A stretch of DNA of 15,584 nucleotides, from contig JALQVQ010000138.1 of the NCBI GenBank assembly GCA_023260315.1, positions 1 through 15,584 of the forward strand, read 5' to 3'. The first letter of the stretch is position 1; each line of letters begins with the position of its first letter. Shown here piece after piece: positions 150 through 15,584 of this stretch. The notes under the pieces are model-generated. The model did not search any database. It was not told the DNA's origin and saw only the letters and a program-made list of their open reading frames with translations. A program made the position numbers and the translations under genes. The stretch is from Burkholderiaceae bacterium (lineage in GTDB: Bacteria; Pseudomonadota; Gammaproteobacteria; Burkholderiales; Burkholderiaceae_C).

Positions 150-266
150 TAATAAATCGTTGGTGCCGGTGAACAGTTCTCCTGGTAGGATGGTGTTGCC
201 TGTGCTTTTGCTCATGCGCTTACCGTTGAGCGTCAGCATGTTGGCGTGCATCCAGTAGCGTGCTCG
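135..266 (-). pseudogene. cysS: Cysteinyl-tRNA synthetase fragment (KMSKS region), out of context
   Basis: Minus-strand translation from 266 to 135 reads [15 protein letters not shown], then [23 protein letters not shown] and VKAFH before a stop at 132-134. This matches the CysRS segment with the KMSKS ATP-binding loop, and the surrounding wording ([18 protein letters not shown]) is typical of Bacteroidetes enzymes. Only about 43 codons of a protein of roughly 460-500 residues are present, with no start and no catalytic N-terminal half. The frame differs from the upstream inositol oxygenase, whose last ~11 codons are read through the same DNA. The fragment is therefore a remnant or an artefactual insert and not a working gene. 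Confidence 0.75.
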
Positions 267-1107
267 GCAAATATTTAGCCATCAAATCTTCGTAATAAGG
301 GCGCAATTCAGACAAGACCGGCGGATTCGCACTTTTCGAATAAAGATCATATGGGTTGAATGCCTGTACCCACCGCAGATTTTCGGCGTCCTGCTCATTG
401 GTCAGGTAACCATAAGCCCCCTCCCGATGCCACGCGTAAAAGGAGTGGTAGCGAATCATATACAACGCCTCAATTGGCAAATAGGGCTTCATCAAGTGGT
501 ACAGGTACTCATCATGGCCCCAGGACAAGTGGACGGCATCCAGACCACAACCCGCTTCGTAAATACCAAGCCGCGTGTTGTATCGCGGGTCATGTGCATC
601 CGGATTTTCATTAAAGTAGCTTGAAAAAACGATTTCTTCCGCATGCTGACAGCCAACGGGAAACGTATCACCCACGACGGCCCACTGCGGCTCACCAAAC
701 AGACACAAGACTTTGCCAAGGTCATGCAAGAAGCCGGTGAGAACGAACCAATCGGGATGCCCATCGCGCCGGATGGCTTCCGCTGTCTGCAGCAAATGAA
801 CGACTTGTGGCAGTTCAATATCGGGGTCGGATTCGTCTACCAGGGTGTTAAGGAACTCAAGGGCAGCCCACGGCGACATGGTGCGCTGCTGAAAGGCTAA
901 CCAATGCGACTTTTTTTCGAGGACGAACGCGAGGGTCTGGTGAATATGATTGGTTCGGTAGAAGGTCCGTACCCGGTCGATACCCGCTTGTTCGTAATCC
1001 CTGAAGGCCGACTTGGGTTTTTCACCGACCGCCGTGAAACTTGGAGCGTCCATCTCAGATCCAATCTCTTTTGCAAACTGGTTTGACATTTGTTCTATAG
1101 TCGGCAT
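220..1107 (-). CDS. Inositol oxygenase (MIOX family), C-terminus altered
   Basis: Di-iron myo-inositol oxygenase, which cleaves the myo-inositol ring with O2 to give D-glucuronate in the cytoplasm. All six iron ligands known from human MIOX are visible in order (numbered from the chosen start): H104 in HLLQTAE, H128-D129 in LHDLGK, H198 in SWGHDEY, H221 in RYHSFY and D254 in YDLYSK. The GDTFPVGC and FRDYE signatures are also present. I chose the ATG at 1107 (295 aa; human MIOX is 285). The longer frame begins with TTG at 1185 inside the divergent phosphatase gene, and an ATG at 1089 is also possible. Homology ends near KYLPSTL at about 256. The last ~11 residues come from a CysRS fragment read out of frame, so the natural tail is lost. 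The active-site part is complete. Confidence 0.9.
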
Positions 1108-1143
1108 TAGACCGAAAGAACTTATCTTTTTCAAGAGAAAATC

Positions 1144-1953
1144 ATGACCGACCCGATAGATCAAAGACTTGTTGCTGCCAAACAAATCGCGGCCGAAGCG
1201 GCTTCGATTGCGATGACCTACTTCAATAACCGCGAATCGTTATTGATCGAGTCCAAAGGGCCACAGGATATGGTTTCGCAAGCGGATAAAAATGTGGAGA
1301 TGTTCATCCGCGAGCAAATTGGGAAGCAATTTCCCGACGACGCCATCATTGGTGAGGAGTACGGACGAACGGCTGGCGCCGCCGATTTCACTTGGGTCAT
1401 TGATCCAATCGACGGTACCGCTAACTTTGTCAGCGGTATCCCTGCTTGGTGCGTTGTGATCGCTTGTGTTCACAAAGAGACGGTGGTTATTGGCGTTACC
1501 GTTGATCCCAACCATGACAACCACTATTGGGCGCGCAAAGGGGGCGGCGCTTATCTGGATGGCAACCGGATGGCTGTTTCCAAGGCGCAATCGATCTCGG
1601 AAGGATCGATCGGTGTCGGTTATTGCAACCGCATCACGCCGGATACATTGCTGACCTTTCTCGATCCCTTTTTAAAGCGCGGGGGCATGTACTACCGTAA
1701 CGCATCAGGGGCATTGATGCTGGCCTATGTCGCTGCGGGGAAATTAACGGCTTACCACGAGGCGCACATCAACCCGTGGGACTGCTTGGCGGGTTTACTC
1801 ATGATTGAAGAAGCTGGCGGCGCGAGTTGGCCTTACAACACCCAGACGATGATGGAACAGGGCTGCGCAATCCTCGCTGGCGCGCCTGCCGTTTTCCAGG
1901 AGCTTGAACCGCTGGCAGCGTACGCAAAAGACTACCAACCGATCAAGCATTGA
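1144..1953 (+). CDS. Inositol monophosphatase family protein
   Basis: Mg2+-dependent phosphatase of the IMPase/SuhB superfamily, 269 aa, cytoplasmic. It likely hydrolyses myo-inositol monophosphate or a related sugar phosphate. The metal-binding set is complete: GEE with E71, DPIDGT with D87 and D90 in the WVIDPIDGTANF motif, and WD with D213 in WDCLAG, followed by IEEAGG. The length is normal for the family. A weak purine-rich stretch (AAGAG) precedes the ATG. The gene diverges from the inositol oxygenase, with only 36 bp between the chosen starts. A perfect TTGACA lies at 1083-1088, but I see only a poor -10 match 16-17 bp downstream (about 1105-1111), so its promoter is uncertain. It converges with afuC after 27 bp. 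Substrate is inferred: family members also act on fructose-1,6-bisphosphate, histidinol phosphate or PAP. Confidence 0.9.
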   Translation: MTDPIDQRLVAAKQIAAEAASIAMTYFNNRESLLIESKGPQDMVSQADKNVEMFIREQIGKQFPDDAIIGEEYGRTAGAADFTWVIDPIDGTANFVSGIPAWCVVIACVHKETVVIGVTVDPNHDNHYWARKGGGAYLDGNRMAVSKAQSISEGSIGVGYCNRITPDTLLTFLDPFLKRGGMYYRNASGALMLAYVAAGKLTAYHEAHINPWDCLAGLLMIEEAGGASWPYNTQTMMEQGCAILAGAPAVFQELEPLAAYAKDYQPIKH

Positions 1954-1980
1954 GGTGTCAACTCGCTGCCCGGCGTGTCA

Positions 1981-3069
1981 TCAATCGTCCAGCAGAACAA
2001 TCGCATCCGGCGGGATCGTCACGGTCACAACCGACCCTGCGAAGGGCGCGTCACTCACCACTGGCGTTCGCACCAAGATTTCGCCAATCGCCGTCTCAAC
2101 AACGCACTCCAGATGATCGCCAAGATAGCTCGCCTTTGACAGCATGCCGGTCATCGCATGCGGGCTGAGCGCCCCTTCCTGGTGAGGTTGAAGGCTAATT
2201 TTTCCAGGGTTGACCGCCATGTGCCCCTTGCCAACTCGATCGATACCTTCCGATAACTCGAAGCTCAACGGCCCTGCAACCACCTTTACGCCATGCGCGC
2301 TGGCGATCCGTTCACAGGGCAATATATTCGCTTCACCGATGAAGTCGGCGACAAATTGCGTACGGGGCTTTTCATACAATTCGCGCGGCGATCCCAATTG
2401 CGCCACAACCGCATTATTCAAAACAACGATGGTGTCGGAAATGGCCAGCGCCTCTTCCTGATCGTGGGTCACGTAGATCACGGTTAAGCCGAGAGACTGC
2501 TGCAAATCTCTTATTTCTTGGCGTACCTTGCGTCGCAATTTGGCGTCTAAATTGGAAAGAGGTTCGTCAAAAAGGAGAACCTGGGGCTCAATGACGAGCG
2601 CCCGCGCGACAGCAACACGCTGCTGCTGACCGCCAGATAGCTCATGTGGATAACGACTGCCCAGGGCCTCAAGGCCAGTCATGCGCATGATTGCGTCAAC
2701 GCGTTCGTCAATTTCCTCGGCTTTTAAAGACCCGACTTCAAGGCCGTACCGAATGTTTTCAAACACCCGCATGTGCGGAAACAAGGCATACGACTGAAAC
2801 ACCATTGATACATCACGCTGGGTCGCCGGCAGACGGGTGACATCGACGCCGCCAATCAGAATCTGTCCAGATGTCGCCATTTCCAGGCCAGCAATCATTC
2901 GAAGGGTTGTGGTCTTCCCGCAGCCAGATGGTCCCAACAATGTCGTCAAACAACCTGAATCAAACTGCAGTGATATGTTGTCAACCGCCGCCGGACTACC
3001 GGGACTGTATTGCTTGACAATTTGCTTCAGAACAACTGCGGCATCGCCGCTCTTGCGATTCAGACTCAT
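1981..3069 (-). CDS. afuC: AfuC-like ABC importer ATP-binding protein
   Basis: ATPase subunit of a MalK/PotA/FbpC-class importer, 362 aa, at the cytoplasmic face. The nucleotide-binding domain is complete: Walker A GPSGCGKT at 46-53, Q-loop Q92 in VFQSYALFP, signature LSGGQ at 144-148, Walker B LLFDEP near 165-170, D-loop SNLD and H-loop H202 in YVTHDQEEAL. Residues of about 250-360 form a TOBE-type C-terminal domain, normally regulatory or substrate-linked. It is the last gene of the afuABC operon, and its ATG overlaps the afuB stop by 4 bp (3066-3069). By sequence alone FbpC (iron), PotA (polyamine) and AfuC (hexose phosphate) are hard to tell apart. The AfuC name rests on the fused permease and the binding protein encoded upstream. 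Confidence 0.85.
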   Translation of the reverse strand: MSLNRKSGDAAVVLKQIVKQYSPGSPAAVDNISLQFDSGCLTTLLGPSGCGKTTTLRMIAGLEMATSGQILIGGVDVTRLPATQRDVSMVFQSYALFPHMRVFENIRYGLEVGSLKAEEIDERVDAIMRMTGLEALGSRYPHELSGGQQQRVAVARALVIEPQVLLFDEPLSNLDAKLRRKVRQEIRDLQQSLGLTVIYVTHDQEEALAISDTIVVLNNAVVAQLGSPRELYEKPRTQFVADFIGEANILPCERIASAHGVKVVAGPLSFELSEGIDRVGKGHMAVNPGKISLQPHQEGALSPHAMTGMLSKASYLGDHLECVVETAIGEILVRTPVVSDAPFAGSVVTVTIPPDAIVLLDD

Positions 3070-5288
3070 GGCACTCCTGACGTCAACGTCGTATCCGATG
3101 GCGCCATCCCTCGACGCCCAATATTTCGACCGCGCGTCAGTCGCTGAAAACTGAGGATCGCGGCCAACATGATCACAATTAAAACCACAGCGTAGGCAAC
3201 GGCAATGCCGTACTCGTTGTTTTCAACCCGACCAATGATGTAACTGGTCGCCATGTTGTGTTGCGCACTGACCAAAAAGATAACCGCGCTGATCGCCGTC
3301 ATGCTGCGGACAAAACTGTAGACCAAGGCCGACAAAATTGCAGGTTTTATCAACGGCAAGGTGATTCGCAAAAACGTTCGCGACGATGTTGCGCGCAAGG
3401 TCATCGATGCCTCATCCAAACTTTTGTCGATTTGCGAGAGCGAGGCAATACCCGAGCGAACACCGACTGGCATGTTACGGAAAACGAAGCAAATCACCAA
3501 AATCGCAGCCGTACCGGTGAGCTCGAACGGCGGGACGTTAAATGCGACGATGTAGCTCACGCCAATGACGGTGCCGGGAATCGCAAAACTCAGCAGCGTA
3601 CCGAACTCAAATGCAGCTTTCCCAACGAACGTTTGACGCGTCAACAGCCAGGCCGTTAAAAGACCAATCGCAGCTGTCAGGGGGGCCGCGATCAGCGAGA
3701 TCGTCAATGTGGTTCCCAAACTGCTCCAAGCAGATCCCTGCCACATCAGGCCATGTTCCGTCCATGAAACACCAAAGCCGCTGATGTAGTGCCTCAGCGT
3801 GAAGGTCCAGTCACGTCCCCAGATTTCAACAAAACTACCGTAAATGATCAGGGCGTAAACGACGATTGTGAAGACCGTCCAAACCAACGTCACACCGATA
3901 ACCGCCCATTTGATAGGCCAGGGTAAATCAGGATGAACGCCACTGTCACCCTTTCCATTGACGGTGATATACCGCTTCTTGCCGAGCCAAACGTTCTGGA
4001 GCATGAACGCGCCGATCGTGAATAACAACAACACCAGCGCTAACATCGCCGCGCGTGCCATATCGCTTTGCGATCCCACAATTGCGAAGAAAATCTCTGT
4101 CGAGAGCACGTTGAAGTTACCGCCAAGCACCAGCGGATTGCCGAAATCAGCCATGCTCTCGATAAAGCCGATCAGAAAAGCGTTGGCGAGGCCTGGCCTC
4201 AGAAGGGGCCACGTGACGGTCTTGAAAGTACGCCAGGGCGTCGCACGCAACGTCTGCGATGCCTCCTCCATCGAGGGACTGATCCCTTCGACAACACCAA
4301 TCAAAACCATGAAACTGATCGGTGTAAACGCCAACAACTGCGCCAATAAGACGCCATTGAAACCATATATCCAGCGCGAGGGCTCAATCGCTAACCAACC
4401 GGCAACCAGTTGCGTCACGAGTCCCGACATACCGAATAACAAAATGACAGACAAACCAATCACAAACGGTGGTGTGATGACGGGCAGCAAAGACAGCGAC
4501 CGCAGCAGCGGCCTGAAAGGCGTTCGCGTGCGCGTGAAGACGAGGGCAAACGCCAGACCCAGCAACGTTGTCAGGAAACCAACCGCAACGGCTAAACCCA
4601 AGGAGTTCCAAGCCGCCCCGCATTGCCCAACACCGCTTAAACATTGCAGTCGCCAGATTTTGGGGTCAAACAGCCGCTCCAGTACCGCGCCCAATATGGC
4701 CCCCTCCCCCTGAGGCTGGAAGGCGAGCAAGAGCATTTGCCCCACTGGCATGAAAATGAACAATCCCACCACGCCAATGATGAGTGCAAGCGACCCTGTG
4801 ACGAAGGGGTCTTGCTGTACACGTCCGCTGGCGGATAAGCCCCATGAAAAGGAGAACAGCAGGGAAAGCAGGCAAAACATGGCACCGTAACCCATGCCAA
4901 ACTGCCGATCTTGCATGTCGCCGAAAGCGTCACTCAAAAAGCTAAAAGACCAGCCCTGGATACCAACGATAAAGCCCTGCCCCAGGGCATATGCCAAACC
5001 AACGGCAGAGATCCAAAGGAACAACTCGCCCCTTTTTCGGCGCGTTAGGGGCAAGAGAGCCCCGGCGAAGAGCACCAGAAAGATGAGGCCGATTGGCGCA
5101 AGCCAAAGTTTTTGCCCTTGCAGTAACAGCGACAGAAGCGATGCACTCTCAGCATCAAGTGGATACCCAGACAACCACGTGAAGCTGAAAAACCCGTCCT
5201 GCAGCATGTACCAAGGCATCAAAGCGATGGCAAGCGCACCTAAAAAAATCGGCCCCGCGATTGACGAGGCCGAGAAATAACGAAACAT
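3066..5288 (-). CDS. afuB: AfuB-like fused ABC importer permease
   Basis: Inner-membrane channel protein, 740 aa, in which two BPD_transp_1 permease domains are fused in one chain. The two ATPase-contacting EAA loops are clear: about 341-361 (EEASQTLRAT, then WPLLRPGLANAF) and about 625-645 (DEASMTLRAT, then LPLIKPAILSAL). In both, the usual Gly is Ala. Domain 1 starts near residue 228 (NSLGLAVAVG), and domain 2 near residue 520 after a cytoplasmic linker with KKRYITVNGKG. Ahead of domain 1 lie about 220 residues with several extra hydrophobic segments (roughly 12-30, 62-80, 90-110, 130-152, 165-190). The gene starts 11 bp after the afuA stop. Ferric-iron FbpB permeases share the fused design, so the substrate is not settled by this protein. 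Confidence 0.88.
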   Translation of the reverse strand: MFRYFSASSIAGPIFLGALAIALMPWYMLQDGFFSFTWLSGYPLDAESASLLSLLLQGQKLWLAPIGLIFLVLFAGALLPLTRRKRGELFLWISAVGLAYALGQGFIVGIQGWSFSFLSDAFGDMQDRQFGMGYGAMFCLLSLLFSFSWGLSASGRVQQDPFVTGSLALIIGVVGLFIFMPVGQMLLLAFQPQGEGAILGAVLERLFDPKIWRLQCLSGVGQCGAAWNSLGLAVAVGFLTTLLGLAFALVFTRTRTPFRPLLRSLSLLPVITPPFVIGLSVILLFGMSGLVTQLVAGWLAIEPSRWIYGFNGVLLAQLLAFTPISFMVLIGVVEGISPSMEEASQTLRATPWRTFKTVTWPLLRPGLANAFLIGFIESMADFGNPLVLGGNFNVLSTEIFFAIVGSQSDMARAAMLALVLLLFTIGAFMLQNVWLGKKRYITVNGKGDSGVHPDLPWPIKWAVIGVTLVWTVFTIVVYALIIYGSFVEIWGRDWTFTLRHYISGFGVSWTEHGLMWQGSAWSSLGTTLTISLIAAPLTAAIGLLTAWLLTRQTFVGKAAFEFGTLLSFAIPGTVIGVSYIVAFNVPPFELTGTAAILVICFVFRNMPVGVRSGIASLSQIDKSLDEASMTLRATSSRTFLRITLPLIKPAILSALVYSFVRSMTAISAVIFLVSAQHNMATSYIIGRVENNEYGIAVAYAVVLIVIMLAAILSFQRLTRGRNIGRRGMAPSDTTLTSGVP

Positions 5289-5299
5289 CGATACTGAGA

Positions 5300-6334
5300 T
5301 TAATTGACTGGCATTGAGCCGACCTCATCGTCCCACTTTTTCAACAGTCGCTTGCGCTCGGCAGATGAGCCGTACTTCACAAAGTTGTAGTTGATGAGTT
5401 TGATGGTCGACAGGTTCGGCGTGAGTGGTGAGACCTCAGCATCAAGGTTCGAAGGCACCTGAAACGACTTCACGTCCTTCGCACGGCTCTGCGACTCAGC
5501 CGTCAGCGCCCAATCATAGAACTTCTTTGCATTCTCAAGGTTACGAGAACCCTTAATGATGCTCATCGAACCAATTTCATAACCCGTGCCCTCGCAAGGC
5601 GCGACGGGCTTTACGGGGAATCCAGCAGCAGCCTGCGCCACGGCATCGTGCATAAAGACGATACCGATGGTGGTCTCACCGCGGCCGGCCGCTTTGATTG
5701 GCGCTGAACCAGACTTCGTGTATTGGTTGATGTTTTTATGCAGCGCCTTCAGGTACTTGAAGGCATCATCCTCACCCATCAACTGAACCAACGTTGCCAG
5801 CGTGGTGTAAGCCGTGCCAGAGGAGTTCGGATTGGCCATTTGAATCTTGCCCTTGTAGGCTGGCTTGATCAAGTCAGCCCAACACATTGGCGCTGGCAAG
5901 CCCTGCTTGGTCAACAACTCGCTGTTGTAACCCCACCCCAGTGCACCGGAGTAGATGCCAATCGTCTTATCGCCGGAGGCTTTGGCTTGATTCATCGCAA
6001 ATGCAGCGATGCGGCGGCGGTTTGGCGAGACATACGCCTGCGTCAGATTTTCTTCTGCAGCCTGCAGATGGGGATCCCCTGTGCCACCCCACCAGACATC
6101 GCCCTTTGGATTGGCGGCTTCAGCCTTGATTTGGGCGTAGGTTTCGCCTGAGCTCTTACGCGTCATATCGACCGTAATGCCAGTCGCTTTCTCAAACTCC
6201 GTTTTAGCTTGTTGGCACCAGGCTTCATCGGAGCTGCAATACAGGGTCACACGACCGGCCGCAGAGGCCGACCCCGCGTAAAGCACACCCGCTGATAACA
6301 GCAATGCGGCGATGACATTTGAACGAAATTTCAT
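5300..6334 (-). CDS. afuA: AfuA-like periplasmic substrate-binding protein
   Basis: Periplasmic receptor of the ABC importer, 344 aa. A Sec signal peptide is visible: basic MKFRSN, a hydrophobic core and an ASA/SAA cleavage region near residues 24-26. The mature part has the SBP_bac_6/AfuA fold signatures, including VWWGGTGDPH and ANPNSSGTAYT. H229-D230 (FMHDA) and E253 (GTGYE) keep the spacing of the His/Asp/Glu trio I recall for glucose-6-phosphate binding in characterised AfuA (H205, D206, E229). I see no adjacent Tyr-Tyr pair of the kind used by ferric-binding FbpA proteins. This favours a phosphorylated sugar or polyol over iron. The start is fixed by GGAGG at 6339-6343, six bases before the ATG. 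It is the first gene of the afuABC operon. Phosphonate binding is an alternative. Confidence 0.82.
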   Translation of the reverse strand: MKFRSNVIAALLLSAGVLYAGSASAAGRVTLYCSSDEAWCQQAKTEFEKATGITVDMTRKSSGETYAQIKAEAANPKGDVWWGGTGDPHLQAAEENLTQAYVSPNRRRIAAFAMNQAKASGDKTIGIYSGALGWGYNSELLTKQGLPAPMCWADLIKPAYKGKIQMANPNSSGTAYTTLATLVQLMGEDDAFKYLKALHKNINQYTKSGSAPIKAAGRGETTIGIVFMHDAVAQAAAGFPVKPVAPCEGTGYEIGSMSIIKGSRNLENAKKFYDWALTAESQSRAKDVKSFQVPSNLDAEVSPLTPNLSTIKLINYNFVKYGSSAERKRLLKKWDDEVGSMPVN

Positions 6335-9964: not shown

Positions 9965-10909
9965 GTGTCCACTGCACTTCAAATACTGGGGATCACCAGC
10001 CCAATTTACCTTGCCATTGCATTGGGTTACGTTGTCACCCGTTTCGGTGTTTTTGGGCGGGCCGACATGCGCCTGTTTGGTCGATTCACACTGAACATCG
10101 CATTACCGGCTCTGTTGTTCCATACCTTCTCAAGCCGAAACTTTGAAGACATCTTCAACCCAAACTATATCGGTGCCTACGCCCTATCAACACTGATCAT
10201 GGTGGCAATCAGTATGGTTTGGGCGCGCCGCGTCCTCAACCAACAACGCACCGCCAGCAGTATCTTTGCGATGGGAACGAGCTGCCCGAACAGTGGTTTT
10301 GTTGGGTACCCACTCATGCTCATTACCCTTGGGCCGGAAACCGCAGGCATTGCGCTGGCCTTGAACATGCTGGTCGAAAACCTGTTGATCATCCCGCTAT
10401 TACTCGCGTTCGCCGAGAGCGGCGCGACACAAGCGAGGTGGCAGGCAATTCTCCGGCACACCGTTCGGGGATTACTTCGAAACCCAATGATCTGGAGCAT
10501 CGCTGCAGGCTTTGGGTTTGCGGTGTCGGGGTGGTCATTACCTGAACCGGTTGGTCGGACCGTACAGATTTTTTCATCGGCGAGCGCGGCGTTATCGCTT
10601 TTCGTGATCGGTGGCTCGCTGGTTGGCCTGCGCCTCAGCGGGCTGCGACAAATGATTGCGAGCATCGCACTGGGCAAGCTCGTCATTCACCCCATCATCA
10701 TGGCGCTAACGCTCACCTATCTTTTCACCATCGAAAGCAGCGCATTGAACGAGGCTGCGATGTTGGTTTGTGCCATGCCGATGATGGGCATTTACACCGC
10801 CCTCGCCCAACGCTATGGTCACGAGGACATGGGTGCAGCCGCCTCATTGGTCACAACGGTTTTATCTTTTTTCACCATTTCAGCTTTGTTGTGGGCTATC
10901 CGTATCTGA
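9965..10909 (+). CDS. AEC-family transporter (auxin efflux carrier/MdcF-like)
   Basis: An inner-membrane carrier of 314 aa of the Mem_trans family (PF03547), with about ten hydrophobic segments and the discontinuous-helix signatures of the family: ALPALLFHTF early, and NSGFVGYPL at about 111-119. The related MdcF protein is linked to malonate transport, and other members carry organic acids or auxin. The only upstream start in frame is GTG at 9965. I see no good Shine-Dalgarno, so initiation may depend on translation of the oxidase gene ending 21 bp upstream. Placement behind a 2-hydroxy-acid oxidase suggests import of its substrate or export of its 2-oxo product. It converges with the histidine kinase gene across 9 bp, and no U-tract terminator is seen there. 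Confidence 0.85.
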   Translation: MSTALQILGITSPIYLAIALGYVVTRFGVFGRADMRLFGRFTLNIALPALLFHTFSSRNFEDIFNPNYIGAYALSTLIMVAISMVWARRVLNQQRTASSIFAMGTSCPNSGFVGYPLMLITLGPETAGIALALNMLVENLLIIPLLLAFAESGATQARWQAILRHTVRGLLRNPMIWSIAAGFGFAVSGWSLPEPVGRTVQIFSSASAALSLFVIGGSLVGLRLSGLRQMIASIALGKLVIHPIIMALTLTYLFTIESSALNEAAMLVCAMPMMGIYTALAQRYGHEDMGAAASLVTTVLSFFTISALLWAIRI

Positions 10910-10918
10910 ACCGAGCGT

Positions 10919-12349
10919 TTAGGGCGCGTCATCAATCGCGCCGTCTGGAACAGCAGGCAAGGTCACCGTAAAGCATGTACCCGCTTGGTCGGGTAAATCG
11001 CTGACGCTGACTGTTCCGCCCAGCTGCTGAATCGTCTCGTGAACAATTGCCAAACCCAAACCACTGCCATCCGCGTCCAAATCCGCACGACTTGGTGATC
11101 GATAGTGCGGACGAAAAATATGGGCCTTCTCCGCTGCCGGTATCACCTTGCCAAGGTTGTGGACCTGCAGCGTGACATCGCCATCCCGTTCAGCCAGAGC
11201 CAAGGTGATCGTGCTGTTGCTGTCGCCATACTTGGAGGCGTTCTCCAGTAAATTTTGAATCACGCTTGTTAATTGCTGTGGCATGGCTTGAACCACAACG
11301 CCCTGCGCACCGACGATCGCGACCGCCTGTTGCCGAAGTGTGAGCTGCGGCAACAGGGCTGTCCGAACTTCAGCGCAGACGGTATCTACCATCACGAAGC
11401 TCGGCGGCAGGTCAGTGCCTTTGCCGTGCGTTGTGCGGCTGAGCGTGAGCAGTTGCTCGATGAAGCGCGTTGTCCGCTTTACCCCCTCAAGCGCCTCTCG
11501 AAGTGCTTGGTCACGTGCCGCTTCGGTCGGTGCCTGCATGGCGTTTTGCAAGTGCAGTTGGATGCCCGCAACGGGCGTTCGCATCTCATGGGCTGCGGCA
11601 TCGATGAACCGCTGCTCGCGCGCAAACGCATCCTTGACCCGCGCCAGCAAGTCGTTGAGTGCCACAACCGAGGTTTTGAGCTCATCAGGCCACGAATCCT
11701 CCTCAATGGACTCCAAAGACTCCGGTCTTCGACTGCGAATACGCGCTGCCAAACGCTGTAGAGGCGTCAGACCTCTGTAGACCTGGATATTCACGAACAG
11801 AATCAGCAACAGCGTCCCGACGGCGAAGGGTGTCAGTACCGCATAAGCCAGTTTGTGGGCTTTCTCCTCGAGTACGTCATTGTGTTCGGCGGCCAACACC
11901 CAAATGGTGCCTGATTTGAGTGCAAACACCTCCCAAGTCTCATCCGCCAACGTCACCGACTGCGAGCCCTCTGTTAGCTCACCCAATCGTGTTGTCGGCG
12001 CGGATTCCGACTTTGCCAACAACACGCCCATGTCGTTCCAAACTTGGAAAGCAATTTTTTGCTCGTAGGGATGTACCGCGTTGTCCGCCGCCTCATCGTG
12101 CCTGTCGTGCCTGTCGTCAAAGTCATCGGGTAGCTCAATAAAGAGGGGTTCATCCTTCGGCATCCGATTAATCTGATTGGTAATTAATGCCTCTAAGACG
12201 CGGGCTGAGGTATTTAAACGTGCTCGAAAAATTTCATCGGACTCGTGCTTGAGCGCCCAGTAGACAGCGCCGCCCACCAAGCTCATCACGACCACCATCG
12301 AAATGACGACACCAAAAACCAACTGATTACGAAGAGAAGATTGCTTCAT
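10919..12349 (-). CDS. Sensor histidine kinase, QseC/TctE-like
   Basis: Membrane histidine kinase, 476 aa, partner of the response regulator whose stop overlaps its ATG by 4 bp. Architecture: TM1 at about 10-32; periplasmic domain about 33-167; TM2 about 168-190; HAMP-like linker about 191-245; dimerisation/phosphoacceptor helix with H254 in DAAAHEMRTP; HATPase with N-box LLENASKYG (N370) and G-box DGSGLGL (about 427-433). The periplasmic domain holds an Asp/His-rich patch at about 74-87 (LPDDFDDRHDRHDE) followed by HPYEQKIAFQVW, a theme seen in QseC-type sensors. The patch could bind a divalent cation. It is the last gene of an operon with a protease, a DUF4384 protein and a lipoprotein, so envelope state is a plausible signal. 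Ligand unknown. Confidence 0.92.
   Translation of the reverse strand: MKQSSLRNQLVFGVVISMVVVMSLVGGAVYWALKHESDEIFRARLNTSARVLEALITNQINRMPKDEPLFIELPDDFDDRHDRHDEAADNAVHPYEQKIAFQVWNDMGVLLAKSESAPTTRLGELTEGSQSVTLADETWEVFALKSGTIWVLAAEHNDVLEEKAHKLAYAVLTPFAVGTLLLILFVNIQVYRGLTPLQRLAARIRSRRPESLESIEEDSWPDELKTSVVALNDLLARVKDAFAREQRFIDAAAHEMRTPVAGIQLHLQNAMQAPTEAARDQALREALEGVKRTTRFIEQLLTLSRTTHGKGTDLPPSFVMVDTVCAEVRTALLPQLTLRQQAVAIVGAQGVVVQAMPQQLTSVIQNLLENASKYGDSNSTITLALAERDGDVTLQVHNLGKVIPAAEKAHIFRPHYRSPSRADLDADGSGLGLAIVHETIQQLGGTVSVSDLPDQAGTCFTVTLPAVPDGAIDDAP
12097..12117 (-). repeat. 9-bp tandem repeat inside the kinase sensor domain
   Basis: CGTGCCTGT occurs twice head-to-tail at 12097-12105 and 12106-12114, followed by a partial CGT. 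On the coding strand each unit codes Asp-Arg-His, giving DRHDRHD. In-frame slippage here would lengthen or shorten the charged sensor loop without breaking the frame. Confidence 0.8.
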
Positions 12350-13014
12350 CGCTCGTCTACCGCCTGAATACTGAAGCCAATACCGCGTACCGTACGGATA
12401 ATTTGAGGGGAAATCTTCTTCCGTAGATTGTGGACGTAGACGTTAATGGCGTTGCTCTCCACCCCCTCGCCCCAGCCATAAAGTGAGGCCTCAAGTTGCT
12501 CACGGCTGAAAATTTGACTCGGACTCTCGGCGAGCTTTCTCAGCAGCTTGAACTCGTAGGGCTGCAGCTCGACCGCCCGACCTTCCCATGACACGCGCAT
12601 CGCATTCAGATCAATTTCGAGTGCCCCCAACTGCAACAGGTTGGTGGACGTGCCCGTTCGGCGACGCTCCAAAACACGCAAACGAGCCTTGAGTTCGTCC
12701 AAGTCAAAGGGCTTGGTGAGGTAATCATCGGCACCCAGGTCAAGTCCCTGCACGCGGTGCGCGGCGCTATCGCGTGCCGACAATATCAGGACCGGCGTGT
12801 GATCAGGCCGTGCGCGCACAGTACGAAGGACCTCTAGGCCATCAACCTTGGGCAGGCCCAAGTCCAAAATCACCAGGTCAAAATCATGCGACGCCAACGC
12901 GGTCAAAGCCATTTGTCCGTCGGACACGTGATCGACCCAATAATTGGCCTGCCTGAGTGCCACTTGTAGGCCAGAGGCCAATAATGGATCGTCTTCGACG
13001 AGTAAAACGCGCAT
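12346..13014 (-). CDS. OmpR-family response regulator, QseB/TctD-like
   Basis: A two-domain transcription factor of 222 aa. The receiver domain has the acidic pocket E7-D8-D9 (VEDDP), the phospho-acceptor D51 (ILDLGLP), S79 (LILSARD) and K101 (LTKPFD). The winged-helix DNA-binding domain (about 125-220) shows LQPYEFKLL, FSREQLE and SNAINVYVHNLRKKI, then RTVRGIGF, the pattern of QseB, PmrA and TctD. Start supported by AGGA eight bases before the ATG. It is followed by its kinase with a 4-bp overlap and preceded by the LPP20 lipoprotein gene after 18 bp. Likely targets are its own operon and envelope genes, but no regulator repeat site is visible within the window because the operon promoter lies beyond the right edge. 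Confidence 0.93.
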   Translation of the reverse strand: MRVLLVEDDPLLASGLQVALRQANYWVDHVSDGQMALTALASHDFDLVILDLGLPKVDGLEVLRTVRARPDHTPVLILSARDSAAHRVQGLDLGADDYLTKPFDLDELKARLRVLERRRTGTSTNLLQLGALEIDLNAMRVSWEGRAVELQPYEFKLLRKLAESPSQIFSREQLEASLYGWGEGVESNAINVYVHNLRKKISPQIIRTVRGIGFSIQAVDER

Positions 13015-13032
13015 GGTGTGATCCTAAGGGAT

Positions 13033-13650
13033 TTAACGTGTTTTACCGATTTCAGCTTCCAACGCCTGAAACGCCTTCGAGGCGCGCAAGCGCGACTTTA
13101 AAACCGTGCTGTCAGTGCCTTGTTTAACCAGCGCCTGCTGGGTCTGCCCGGCTGGCATTTCGATCAGCACATAGGCACGGAAGTCGGTCCCTTCACGCGA
13201 GATCTCATGTTTTACGATGCGGTGTCCCGCCAGAGAGACCTCGGCAACCACATCTTTTGCGACCTTTTCGATCTCCCGCTCAACAACCGGATCTACGGGG
13301 TCACCTGACTCAGCAATGAACGATTTAATGCTCGCCGAAACCGCGCTGTTCACTTGCGCCGCTAACCCTGACTTGGCACTCAAAACGGCCTTATCGAGTG
13401 CAAACTGCATATCGGCAGACCGGTCGGTACCGGCAGAGACCAAATAGCCGGGTTTCACAATCGGCTGTCGATACCAGTCCGGTGATGCCTTCAAAGTGTC
13501 GTCAACACGTGCGATCGCCGCCTTGTTCGCTTGTTCGGCCATGTAGGCGTCATATTCGGGCGTTCCGGCAGGCGGCTTGGATGCGCAGGCGGTCAGTAAG
13601 CCCACGAGGGCCAGAGATGTCAGCGCGAGGCGTTGGGTTTGTTTTCTCAT
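13033..13650 (-). CDS. LPP20-type outer-membrane lipoprotein
   Basis: A 205-aa lipoprotein. The signal peptide ends in the lipobox LTAC with lipidated C22. The +2 residue is Ala, which in a proteobacterium favours outer-membrane sorting by Lol. The mature region resembles LPP20-family proteins: PDWY at about 57-60, a small beta region GYLVSAGTDRS, a helix with DMQFALDKAVLSAKSGLA, then VSLAGHRIVKHEI and FRAYVLIEMP. Its function is not established; members are surface or envelope lipoproteins in many Gram-negatives. It starts inside the stop of the DUF4384 gene (ATGA overlap at 13647-13650) and is followed after 18 bp by the response regulator, so it belongs to the five-gene operon. It could be a structural partner or a sensed component of the system. 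Confidence 0.82.
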   Translation of the reverse strand: MRKQTQRLALTSLALVGLLTACASKPPAGTPEYDAYMAEQANKAAIARVDDTLKASPDWYRQPIVKPGYLVSAGTDRSADMQFALDKAVLSAKSGLAAQVNSAVSASIKSFIAESGDPVDPVVEREIEKVAKDVVAEVSLAGHRIVKHEISREGTDFRAYVLIEMPAGQTQQALVKQGTDSTVLKSRLRASKAFQALEAEIGKTR

Positions 13651-14531
13651 TGCAAAGCTTCCTTTTTAAGTTGCGGTTTCTGTATCACCTGAAAGGCGTG
13701 GGATTGCCAGCGGATATCTCGCCGCGGAATTTCGTGTAACTTTCGGCCAAACTCAGACAAAGTCAGCGTTGCAGGCCATTCAATGGGGTCACGTGAATAG
13801 ACGACGATGAGGTATTCGGCCCACGTACTCGGCGGCACCCAGCGCGACTCACGGGGATCAATCGGAAAACCGCCAACCTCTAAGCGCGTCCCTTCGCGGG
13901 GAAACACACCCGCACCGCTGACGCTCAGCGGTGTTGATGTGTCAGCGGGTAGCACCCGCGTGAGTGGCGCTGTTTGGTCTTCAATTGGCGCCCAATTAAA
14001 GAGGGTCAAATACCCGCGGTGCGTCGGCGTCACCGTGAGCCGAAGCGCTTCCCCAACCCGGTAGATCGGGCGCTCAAGGGCTACGGTGAGATCAAATGAC
14101 GGATCAGGCTGACCGTTGGGAAGCGCGACCACAGCCGCCATCTCAACCGTGCAGGCGCGCCCGCCGAGATAAGGCTTGACCGCCGTCTGAATGACGTTTG
14201 CTTCGAGCAACAAACCTGACAACTCCGACCAGAGAGTTTGCGATAAGCGGCATGGTGAGCCAGGCGAGAGGGCTCCGGCGTCATCAGGCGATTTGCAGAC
14301 CAACAGACGGTCCGCGCGGATGGACTCGCCTCCAACCTGCTCAATCGCCAGGCGCTTCGCATCCGCAACCGCGAAGCGGCAAGCGTCAGCTTCAGAGGTA
14401 TCGGGCCCGAATCGATGAGTCCCCGTCACACGGACCGGTACCTGCGCCGTTGCCACCGTGTGCACCAGACAGCCCAAAACCACAGCGAGTGCCACGCTCA
14501 CCGCATTGGAGAAGATACGTCTTTGCATCAT
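13647..14531 (-). CDS. Exported DUF4384-domain protein
   Basis: 294 aa with a clear Sec signal peptide (basic MMQRR, long hydrophobic stretch, ATA-Q cleavage near residue 29; a VLGC at 18-21 is a poor lipobox). Two regions follow. Residues about 32-135 read VRVTGTHRFG, then EADACRFAVADAKRLAIEQVGG, a pattern reminiscent of the FlgT-N/LPP20 type of small alpha-beta domain, with Cys51, Cys79, Cys94 and Cys127 that could pair as disulfides in the periplasm. Residues about 146-240 match DUF4384: FDLTVALERPIYRVGEAL, RGYLTLFNW and LPADTSTPL. DUF4384 is often fused to caspase-like or other peptidase domains. Here it is separate but overlaps a serine protease gene by 4 bp. The double Met start (14531/14528) is resolved by that ATGA overlap. 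No enzymatic residues are recognised. Confidence 0.72.
   Translation of the reverse strand: MMQRRIFSNAVSVALAVVLGCLVHTVATAQVPVRVTGTHRFGPDTSEADACRFAVADAKRLAIEQVGGESIRADRLLVCKSPDDAGALSPGSPCRLSQTLWSELSGLLLEANVIQTAVKPYLGGRACTVEMAAVVALPNGQPDPSFDLTVALERPIYRVGEALRLTVTPTHRGYLTLFNWAPIEDQTAPLTRVLPADTSTPLSVSGAGVFPREGTRLEVGGFPIDPRESRWVPPSTWAEYLIVVYSRDPIEWPATLTLSEFGRKLHEIPRRDIRWQSHAFQVIQKPQLKKEALQ
13913..13933. repeat. Perfect 9-bp inverted repeat inside the DUF4384 gene
   Basis: CACCGCTGA and TCAGCGGTG flank a 3-nt loop (CGC). The hairpin would form in the operon mRNA. It lacks a following U-tract, so it is not an intrinsic terminator. It may affect mRNA stability or be a coincidence of coding sequence. 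Confidence 0.55.
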
Positions 14532-15584
14532 TTCACCGCCACCGCCACAATCACAACCCGGCCGAGCATGTCCTGATAGATCTGCTCAGGTGGCTTGACC
14601 GCCAAGTCTGCGGTTGCGTTGGTGTTCGCCACGGGGTCGATGCGGCCTGTCAGGGCCTGTCGGATGCGATCGGCCTGGATCGCAAAGTTGATGTCCTCGG
14701 GCATGATGCCTTCGGACAGTCGCAGGGCCTCGTTATCGAGCTTACCCATCGTCAAACCGACCAAATGACCGCGCATGTCAAACACAGGCCCCCCTGAGTT
14801 GCCGCGATTAATTTTGGCTGTTAACTGAAACATCTTGGGGTCCTCGTTGATACCAGCCACTTTCGCCACAACCCCATTGGTCAAGGATGGTGTTTGACTG
14901 CCGAGCAAGTACCACAGCGGATACCCCATCGCAACCACCTGACTACCTGGCTGAGCCATACGCAGATCGCTGAGCTCGATGGCCCGCTCTGCTGGCAGCG
15001 GCTTATCCAACTCAAGAATGGCCAAGTCATCGGTCTCGGACATGAAAACAACGCGCGCCTTGGACACCTCGCCAAGGCCGGTACGAACCGCGAAATCGCT
15101 CCCCCCCTCCACCACGTGGCGATTCGTCAACACGCGTCGACCGCCATCCACGACAACGCCGCTTGCGCCCCGAACGGCGGTTCCGCCGGGAAACGGGAAG
15201 CGCTCAAACGATTTTGGCGATAGGGGTTTGAAATAGGGGACCGCCTGCTGGCTTTCCTGCAGAAACGCGCCCCGACGTGTCAGTCGCATATCTCGACTCT
15301 CGATGGCCTGAAGCGGTGTCGTGTCGTTAGCAGGCCCCACGTCAGTCTCTTCGCTGGTCAACAAGTTGGCTTGTGAACGTTGGATCAAGTAAGCAACGTC
15401 GTTGCCGGCTTTTTGATAGCCCGTTGCGGCCTGAATATGGGCTGCGCGTGCGGCAGTGTCGTCACCGGATCGCTTGGCGAGTGTCGCTTTGATCGACCAG
15501 ACGGCGGGCGATCCCCCACCTTCCGCCATGCTTGGCATTGCGCCCAAAATTGCCTTTGTCTGTTGTGCGTTGATCAGATGTCCA
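14528..15584 (-). CDS. Trypsin/HtrA-like serine protease (N-terminus beyond window)
   Basis: C-terminal ~351 residues of a larger protein; the frame is open to the right edge with no convincing start. The protease domain carries a complete S1C/trypsin-type triad: His in TNRHVV (codon 15116-15118), Asp in ETDDLAIL (15026-15028) and Ser in RGNSGGPVFD (14795-14797). GASGVVVD and MGYPLWY are in place, so activity is expected. Ahead of it, about 85 residues are Ala-rich and helical (KATLAKRSGDDTAARAA, GYQKAGNDVAYLIQRSQANL), resembling a TPR- or Sel1-like repeat edge. No PDZ domain follows; the protein ends about 90 residues after the active Ser with a hydrophobic VVIVAVAVK. Its TGA overlaps the DUF4384 ATG by 4 bp. 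It is probably exported, but the signal peptide lies outside the window. Confidence 0.85.
   Translation of the reverse strand, partial: GHLINAQQTKAILGAMPSMAEGGGSPAVWSIKATLAKRSGDDTAARAAHIQAATGYQKAGNDVAYLIQRSQANLLTSEETDVGPANDTTPLQAIESRDMRLTRRGAFLQESQQAVPYFKPLSPKSFERFPFPGGTAVRGASGVVVDGGRRVLTNRHVVEGGSDFAVRTGLGEVSKARVVFMSETDDLAILELDKPLPAERAIELSDLRMAQPGSQVVAMGYPLWYLLGSQTPSLTNGVVAKVAGINEDPKMFQLTAKINRGNSGGPVFDMRGHLVGLTMGKLDNEALRLSEGIMPEDINFAIQADRIRQALTGRIDPVANTNATADLAVKPPEQIYQDMLGRVVIVAVAVK

Follow-up and report, generated by a model that had tools for sequence, protein, structure and literature searches.

Our data show that the five minus-strand genes at positions 10,919 to 15,584 of the window (i.e., the whole 15,584-nucleotide stretch analyzed here) are two units and not one known system. 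The first is a cassette encoding a serine protease, a DUF4384-like protein, and an LPP20-like lipoprotein, and the second is a two-component system (TCS) consisting of a response regulator (RR) and a histidine kinase (HK). We consider it probable that the five genes represent an exported S1C protease/caspase envelope module that carries a regulator of other origin.

The operon and its recurring cassette

The draft genome to which the window belongs (as contig C273) comprises 1.59 Mb in 317 contigs and is 67% complete. The gene order, coordinates, and overlaps reported in a first-pass annotation were all borne out by the ORF coordinates (Table 1), with 4-bp overlaps at three junctions (14528/14531, 13647/13650, and 12346/12349). 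Scanning positions 10880-15584 for sigma-70-like promoters gave no minus-strand match; the one site in this interval lies on the plus strand, and 1.7 are expected from shuffled sequences. Since no separate promoter was found in the window, the RR/HK pair is probably co-transcribed with the cassette.

Table 1. Features of the minus-strand operon in the window
Feature	Coordinates	Strand	Domains, motifs, or basis
Serine protease, 351 aa, 5'-truncated by the contig end	14528..15584	-	S1C/HtrA-like domain
DUF4384-like protein, 294 aa	13647..14531	-	Weak Pfam match, homologues
LPP20-like lipoprotein, 205 aa	13033..13650	-	Lipobox-like LTAC, Cys22
18-bp gap	13015..13032	-	TAGGAT Shine-Dalgarno-like stretch; no promoter match
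OmpR-type response regulator, 222 aa	12346..13014	-	Receiver + Trans_reg_C
Sensor histidine kinase, 476 aa	10919..12349	-	HisKA + HATPase_c

The protease has both features that define S1C (HtrA-like) members, i.e., a Trypsin_2 domain (Pfam, 94.4 bits against a cut-off of 27.6, E 1.4e-26) and a His-Asp-Ser triad (motifs NRHV, DDLAI, and GNSGG). A database protein that is 99% identical (P0013, 550 aa) aligns with the piece in the window over its residues 200-550, so that ~199 residues are missing from that piece. P0013 has a signal-like N-terminus with a hydrophobic N-terminal segment, and the window protease is probably exported. The structural model of P0013 comprises a helical solenoid (residues 34-273) and an HtrA-like domain. 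The protease domain fold and triad are common to the window protease and the HtrA/DegS family, whereas the window type has a modelled N-terminal alpha-solenoid in place of a PDZ domain, none of which was found in P0013 by a Pfam scan. Identity with the DegP, DegS, or DegQ equivalogs was rejected, since all NCBIfam scores were far under their cut-offs and no PDZ was found. Tetratricopeptide repeats (TPRs) were recognized by Pfam in the relative from Polynucleobacter locus L042 and not in P0013. A search at E <= 1e-60 returned the protease in 0 of 398 members of the order, its own genome aside.

The DUF4384-like protein scores 15.5 bits against DUF4384 (PF14326), under the Pfam gathering cut-off of 27, and its L042 relative scores 37.4 bits, over the cut-off. 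PF14326 is also the precomputed annotation of 7 of the 12 homologues found. Four cysteines (C51, C79, C94, and C127) are invariant in all 13 aligned sequences. The protein has a hydrophobic N-terminal segment and is probably exported. Similarly, the lipoprotein remains under the gathering cut-off of LPP20 (PF02169; 19.8 bits against 25.9), as does its L042 relative (25.4 bits). Its lipobox-like Cys22 is invariant in 12/12 aligned rows, and residue +2 is Ala; under the Lol +2 rule, Ala at this position directs a lipoprotein to the outer membrane. Among 5.8 billion proteins, the DUF4384-like protein had 12 relatives and the lipoprotein 15, in a search that reaches only relatives with shared short words; genome scans yielded more distant ones.

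The first-pass annotation suggested searching for this gene order across proteobacteria, and doing so revealed that the three envelope genes recur as a tight-operon unit. Scanning the genomes of 84,980 species with a lipoprotein profile gave 25 loci, and 15 further genomes, out of 399 searched from the order, had hits of greater or lesser strength. The order is probably GTDB's Burkholderiales, since the G432 locus matches the Betaproteobacteria locus L053. With two duplicates left out, DUF4384-like and LPP20-like genes occur together in 24 other proteobacterial loci (23 from the 84,980-species scan plus L067). These loci are partly redundant, in that L049/L051/L054 and L063/L064 are sets of near-duplicates and a single genome contributed L047/L048/L060. 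In the window, the protease, DUF4384-like, and LPP20-like genes are adjacent on one strand. Among the 24 loci, a TPR/S1C protease is visible in 15 and was not seen in 9, some of which lie on short contigs, although the gene would fit within L053 and L067. A further TPR-protein gene is present in 16/24 loci, the front of its product being GNA1162-like in the one copy scanned. The positions of the protease, the extra TPR gene, and the caspase gene described below vary among loci. At L067 (4130-9446), the DUF4384-like and LPP20-like genes are followed by genes for a TpsB-type outer-membrane transporter, a 7TMR-DISM kinase, and a response regulator.

Linkage to caspase-domain genes

The suggestion that caspase-like genes might accompany the operon was borne out in the relatives: 21 of the 24 cassette loci carry a gene with a Peptidase_C14 (caspase) domain. 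Seventeen of these were called by scanning over the Pfam cut-off and four (L051, L054, L060, and L064) by our own profile at >= 380 bits, a profile built from 8 of the same cassette loci. A C14 match was found in 1/12 control loci that have LPP20-like matches without a DUF4384-like gene and in 0/15 others (TCS relatives and a genus-mate), although these controls come from other genomes, so that caspase-rich lineages may inflate the contrast with the cassette loci. The C14 gene lies on the cassette strand in 20 of the 21 loci and on the opposite strand in L065. The domain was not shown in three loci, two of which, L045 and L057, are on contigs under 9 kb. The third is L059, whose Sel1-repeat ORF is cut by the contig end and was the one exception among 19 candidate ORFs submitted to Pfam, the other 18 having C14.

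Both catalytic motifs (H and C) were recognized in 18/24 loci; in L046, L048, and L058 the C14 match is over the cut-off and the Cys motif was not recognized. The His and Cys of the caspase dyad are invariant in all eight aligned caspases. A hydrophobic N-terminal segment was found in 24 of 34 caspase ORFs, and the caspases of the relatives combine Peptidase_C14 with Sel1 or MORN repeats or with other N-terminal regions. In Polynucleobacter L042, six contiguous genes spaced by 17 bp or less encode, in order, a small protein, a Sel1-caspase, a protein of ~150 aa, a TPR-protease, the DUF4384 protein, and the LPP20 protein. In L042, L052, L056, L063, and L064, loci with a protease that we take to belong to betaproteobacterial groups, the ~150-aa gene and the start of the protease gene share 4 bp. 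Since relatives' loci carry them, we expect by analogy that the ~150-aa gene and the caspase gene lie beyond position 15584 in the window's organism. Its own draft genome (67% complete) gave no match to Peptidase_C14 or to a full caspase query, and the contig ends inside the protease.

The Paramagnetospirillum caucaseum genome has three cassette copies (L047, L048, and L060), each with a downstream caspase-domain gene, and L056 (2-16909) has five caspase-domain ORFs around the cassette in one 18.5-kb stretch.

We propose that the protease, DUF4384-like, and LPP20-like genes probably belong to a cassette for envelope proteolysis, which in relatives recurrently includes the caspase-family protease as well. 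The alpha-solenoid of the S1C protease probably binds a partner, and the DUF4384-like protein together with the lipoprotein probably anchors the protease in the periplasm and at the outer membrane. In the periplasm, this protease and the caspase could act in sequence, giving a proteolytic switch with two steps. A more elaborate scheme, a periplasmic proteolytic cascade, appears quite unlikely to us. In it, an S1C protease with a solenoid sensor and an exported caspase would form a complex anchored in the outer membrane, with envelope damage triggering their mutual activation, and in this lineage they would signal to the genome via a captured TCS.

Relation to described caspase operons

Operons of caspase homologues have been cataloged before. 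The part of PMC3501461 available to us lists 23 with other proteolysis domains, reports Sel1 in 40 sequences, and gives the function as unknown for 70 of 217 operons. The relatives of the cassette share with these orthocaspases/metacaspases both caspases with Sel1 repeats and operons that include further proteolysis genes, whereas a cassette with DUF4384-like and LPP20-like genes is not described in that part of the paper, and the window has no visible caspase gene. According to the available text of PMC6426788, trypsin-like, p20(QC), and DUF4384 domains are fused in single alphaproteobacterial proteins. These are the same three domain types as in the cassette, and the trypsin-like triad is intact; however, the fusions have a substituted p20 dyad, whereas the cassette has separate genes, an H-C dyad in 18/24 loci, and an added lipoprotein.

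DUF4384 also occurs within cyanobacterial orthocaspases, as stated in the available portions of PMC7475262 and PMC8283722 (23 cases in the latter). The terms DUF4384, LPP20, and lipoprotein are absent from the available text of PMC8195603, and that of PMC7159879 mentions Sel1 as peptidoglycan-associating and does not mention DUF4384 or LPP20. The accessible text of PMC4933709 has one metacaspase with Sel1 x 3 and includes the speculation that Betaproteobacteria degrade proteins extracellularly. We found no description of the cassette in the parts of the searched literature available to us, a search whose scope excludes most subscription journals. Since it is often unclear with which partners, and in what setting, bacterial caspase homologues work, a cassette of caspase, S1C protease, DUF4384-like protein, and lipoproteins that recurs in Alpha- and Betaproteobacteria offers a defined, testable partner set. 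The window would add a natural case in which a regulator of other origin is attached to this cassette.

Setting of the two-component pair and alternative explanations

Pfam domains identify the RR/HK pair as an OmpR-type two-component system (Table 1). In NCBIfam, PmrA scored best for the RR and CztS/QseC for the HK, in each case below the cut-off. The HK has hydrophobic segments at residues 11-29 and 170-188, with ~140 residues between them. Among the 398 other genomes searched from the order, 13 have an HK relative at E <= 1e-75. We examined 13 TCS loci, i.e., those of 11 of these genomes plus two in cassette-bearing Oxalobacteraceae genomes. The nearest relatives found share 51-63% (RR) and 34-42% (HK) identity with the window pair, so that the HK reaches 42% at most.

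Genes for a TPR protein, the RR, and the HK are consecutive in all 13 loci, the TPR protein being 212 aa long in L122, with an N-terminus that is signal-like in the copies read. In 11 loci these three follow genes for an AMP-binding enzyme, an iron-containing redox enzyme (Haem_oxygenas_2), and an SDR, and the remaining two are truncated by contig ends; domains of this six-gene cluster were taken from one or two members. The cluster is conserved in L106, L107, L119-L124, L126, L150, and L151. Although it is the home of the nearest relatives found of the window RR/HK, it lacks the protease, DUF4384-like, and LPP20-like genes in all 13 loci examined. Conversely, the window-type TCS is absent from 24/24 cassette loci. 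A search for an HK of the window kind at E <= 1e-60 found no match in 19 of 21 cassette-bearing genomes, and in the other two the HK is on another contig, in the six-gene cluster. RR/HK genes of other types occur further downstream of the cassette in L042 and L067, which we take as unremarkable. Because its relatives sit in a six-gene cluster without the cassette, the RR/HK pair of the window looks like a recruited unit of different origin. We propose that it was placed behind the cassette in the window's lineage and probably adjusts transcription of the operon, including its own.

The first-pass annotation had instead suggested a self-contained envelope-surveillance circuit, in which the five genes evolved together and the kinase senses the lipoprotein, the DUF4384 protein, or the protease. 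The tight packing of the genes and the lack of a promoter match before the RR favor such a circuit. In addition, a sensor that reads a co-encoded exported partner is plausible, since the TCS of the relatives lies directly behind a TPR protein whose N-terminus is signal-like in the copies read. However, none of the 13 TCS loci has the cassette, none of the 24 cassette loci has the window-type TCS, and both genomes that have the two keep them on separate contigs. The relatives examined therefore do not support a five-gene system of fixed composition, and we regard a co-evolved circuit as unlikely. It is also possible, though somewhat unlikely, that the TCS is a chance neighbor serving another target and sharing only a transcript with the cassette. 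The separability of cassette and TCS is consistent with this reading, as are the sub-threshold NCBIfam matches, which give no tie to proteolysis; on the other hand, the 18-bp gap without a promoter match follows a series of overlapping genes, and the adjacent downstream gene (9965-10909) points toward the operon. The annotation's own sign of chance adjacency was the occurrence of the two-component genes without the other three and with a separate promoter; the former was seen in 13/13 loci, whereas the separate promoter was not found.

A mis-binned or chimeric contig, whose five-gene order is not that of the genome, might be suspected from the fragmentation of the draft and from the DUF4384-like gene, which was found in 0/59 relatives and 0/398 family members searched, its own genome aside. 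However, the tetranucleotide profile of the operon scored 0.923 against 17 of the genome's own contigs (17/20 were usable), in comparison with a median of 0.936 and a minimum of 0.784 for 28 of its own windows of operon size. Furthermore, two flanking genes are adjacent in the genus-mate G008 too, with 71-77% protein identity. This profile fit and the shared flanking genes make mis-binning highly improbable. Near-identical copies of the DUF protein (P0001, 98%) and the lipoprotein (P0133, 99%) are, like P0013, listed elsewhere; since they are on contigs shorter than the window's, they are probably from other assemblies.

Elsewhere in the window (220-6334), genes for a myo-inositol oxygenase, an inositol monophosphatase, and a binding-protein-dependent ABC transporter are grouped, possibly as an inositol-related uptake and use cluster.
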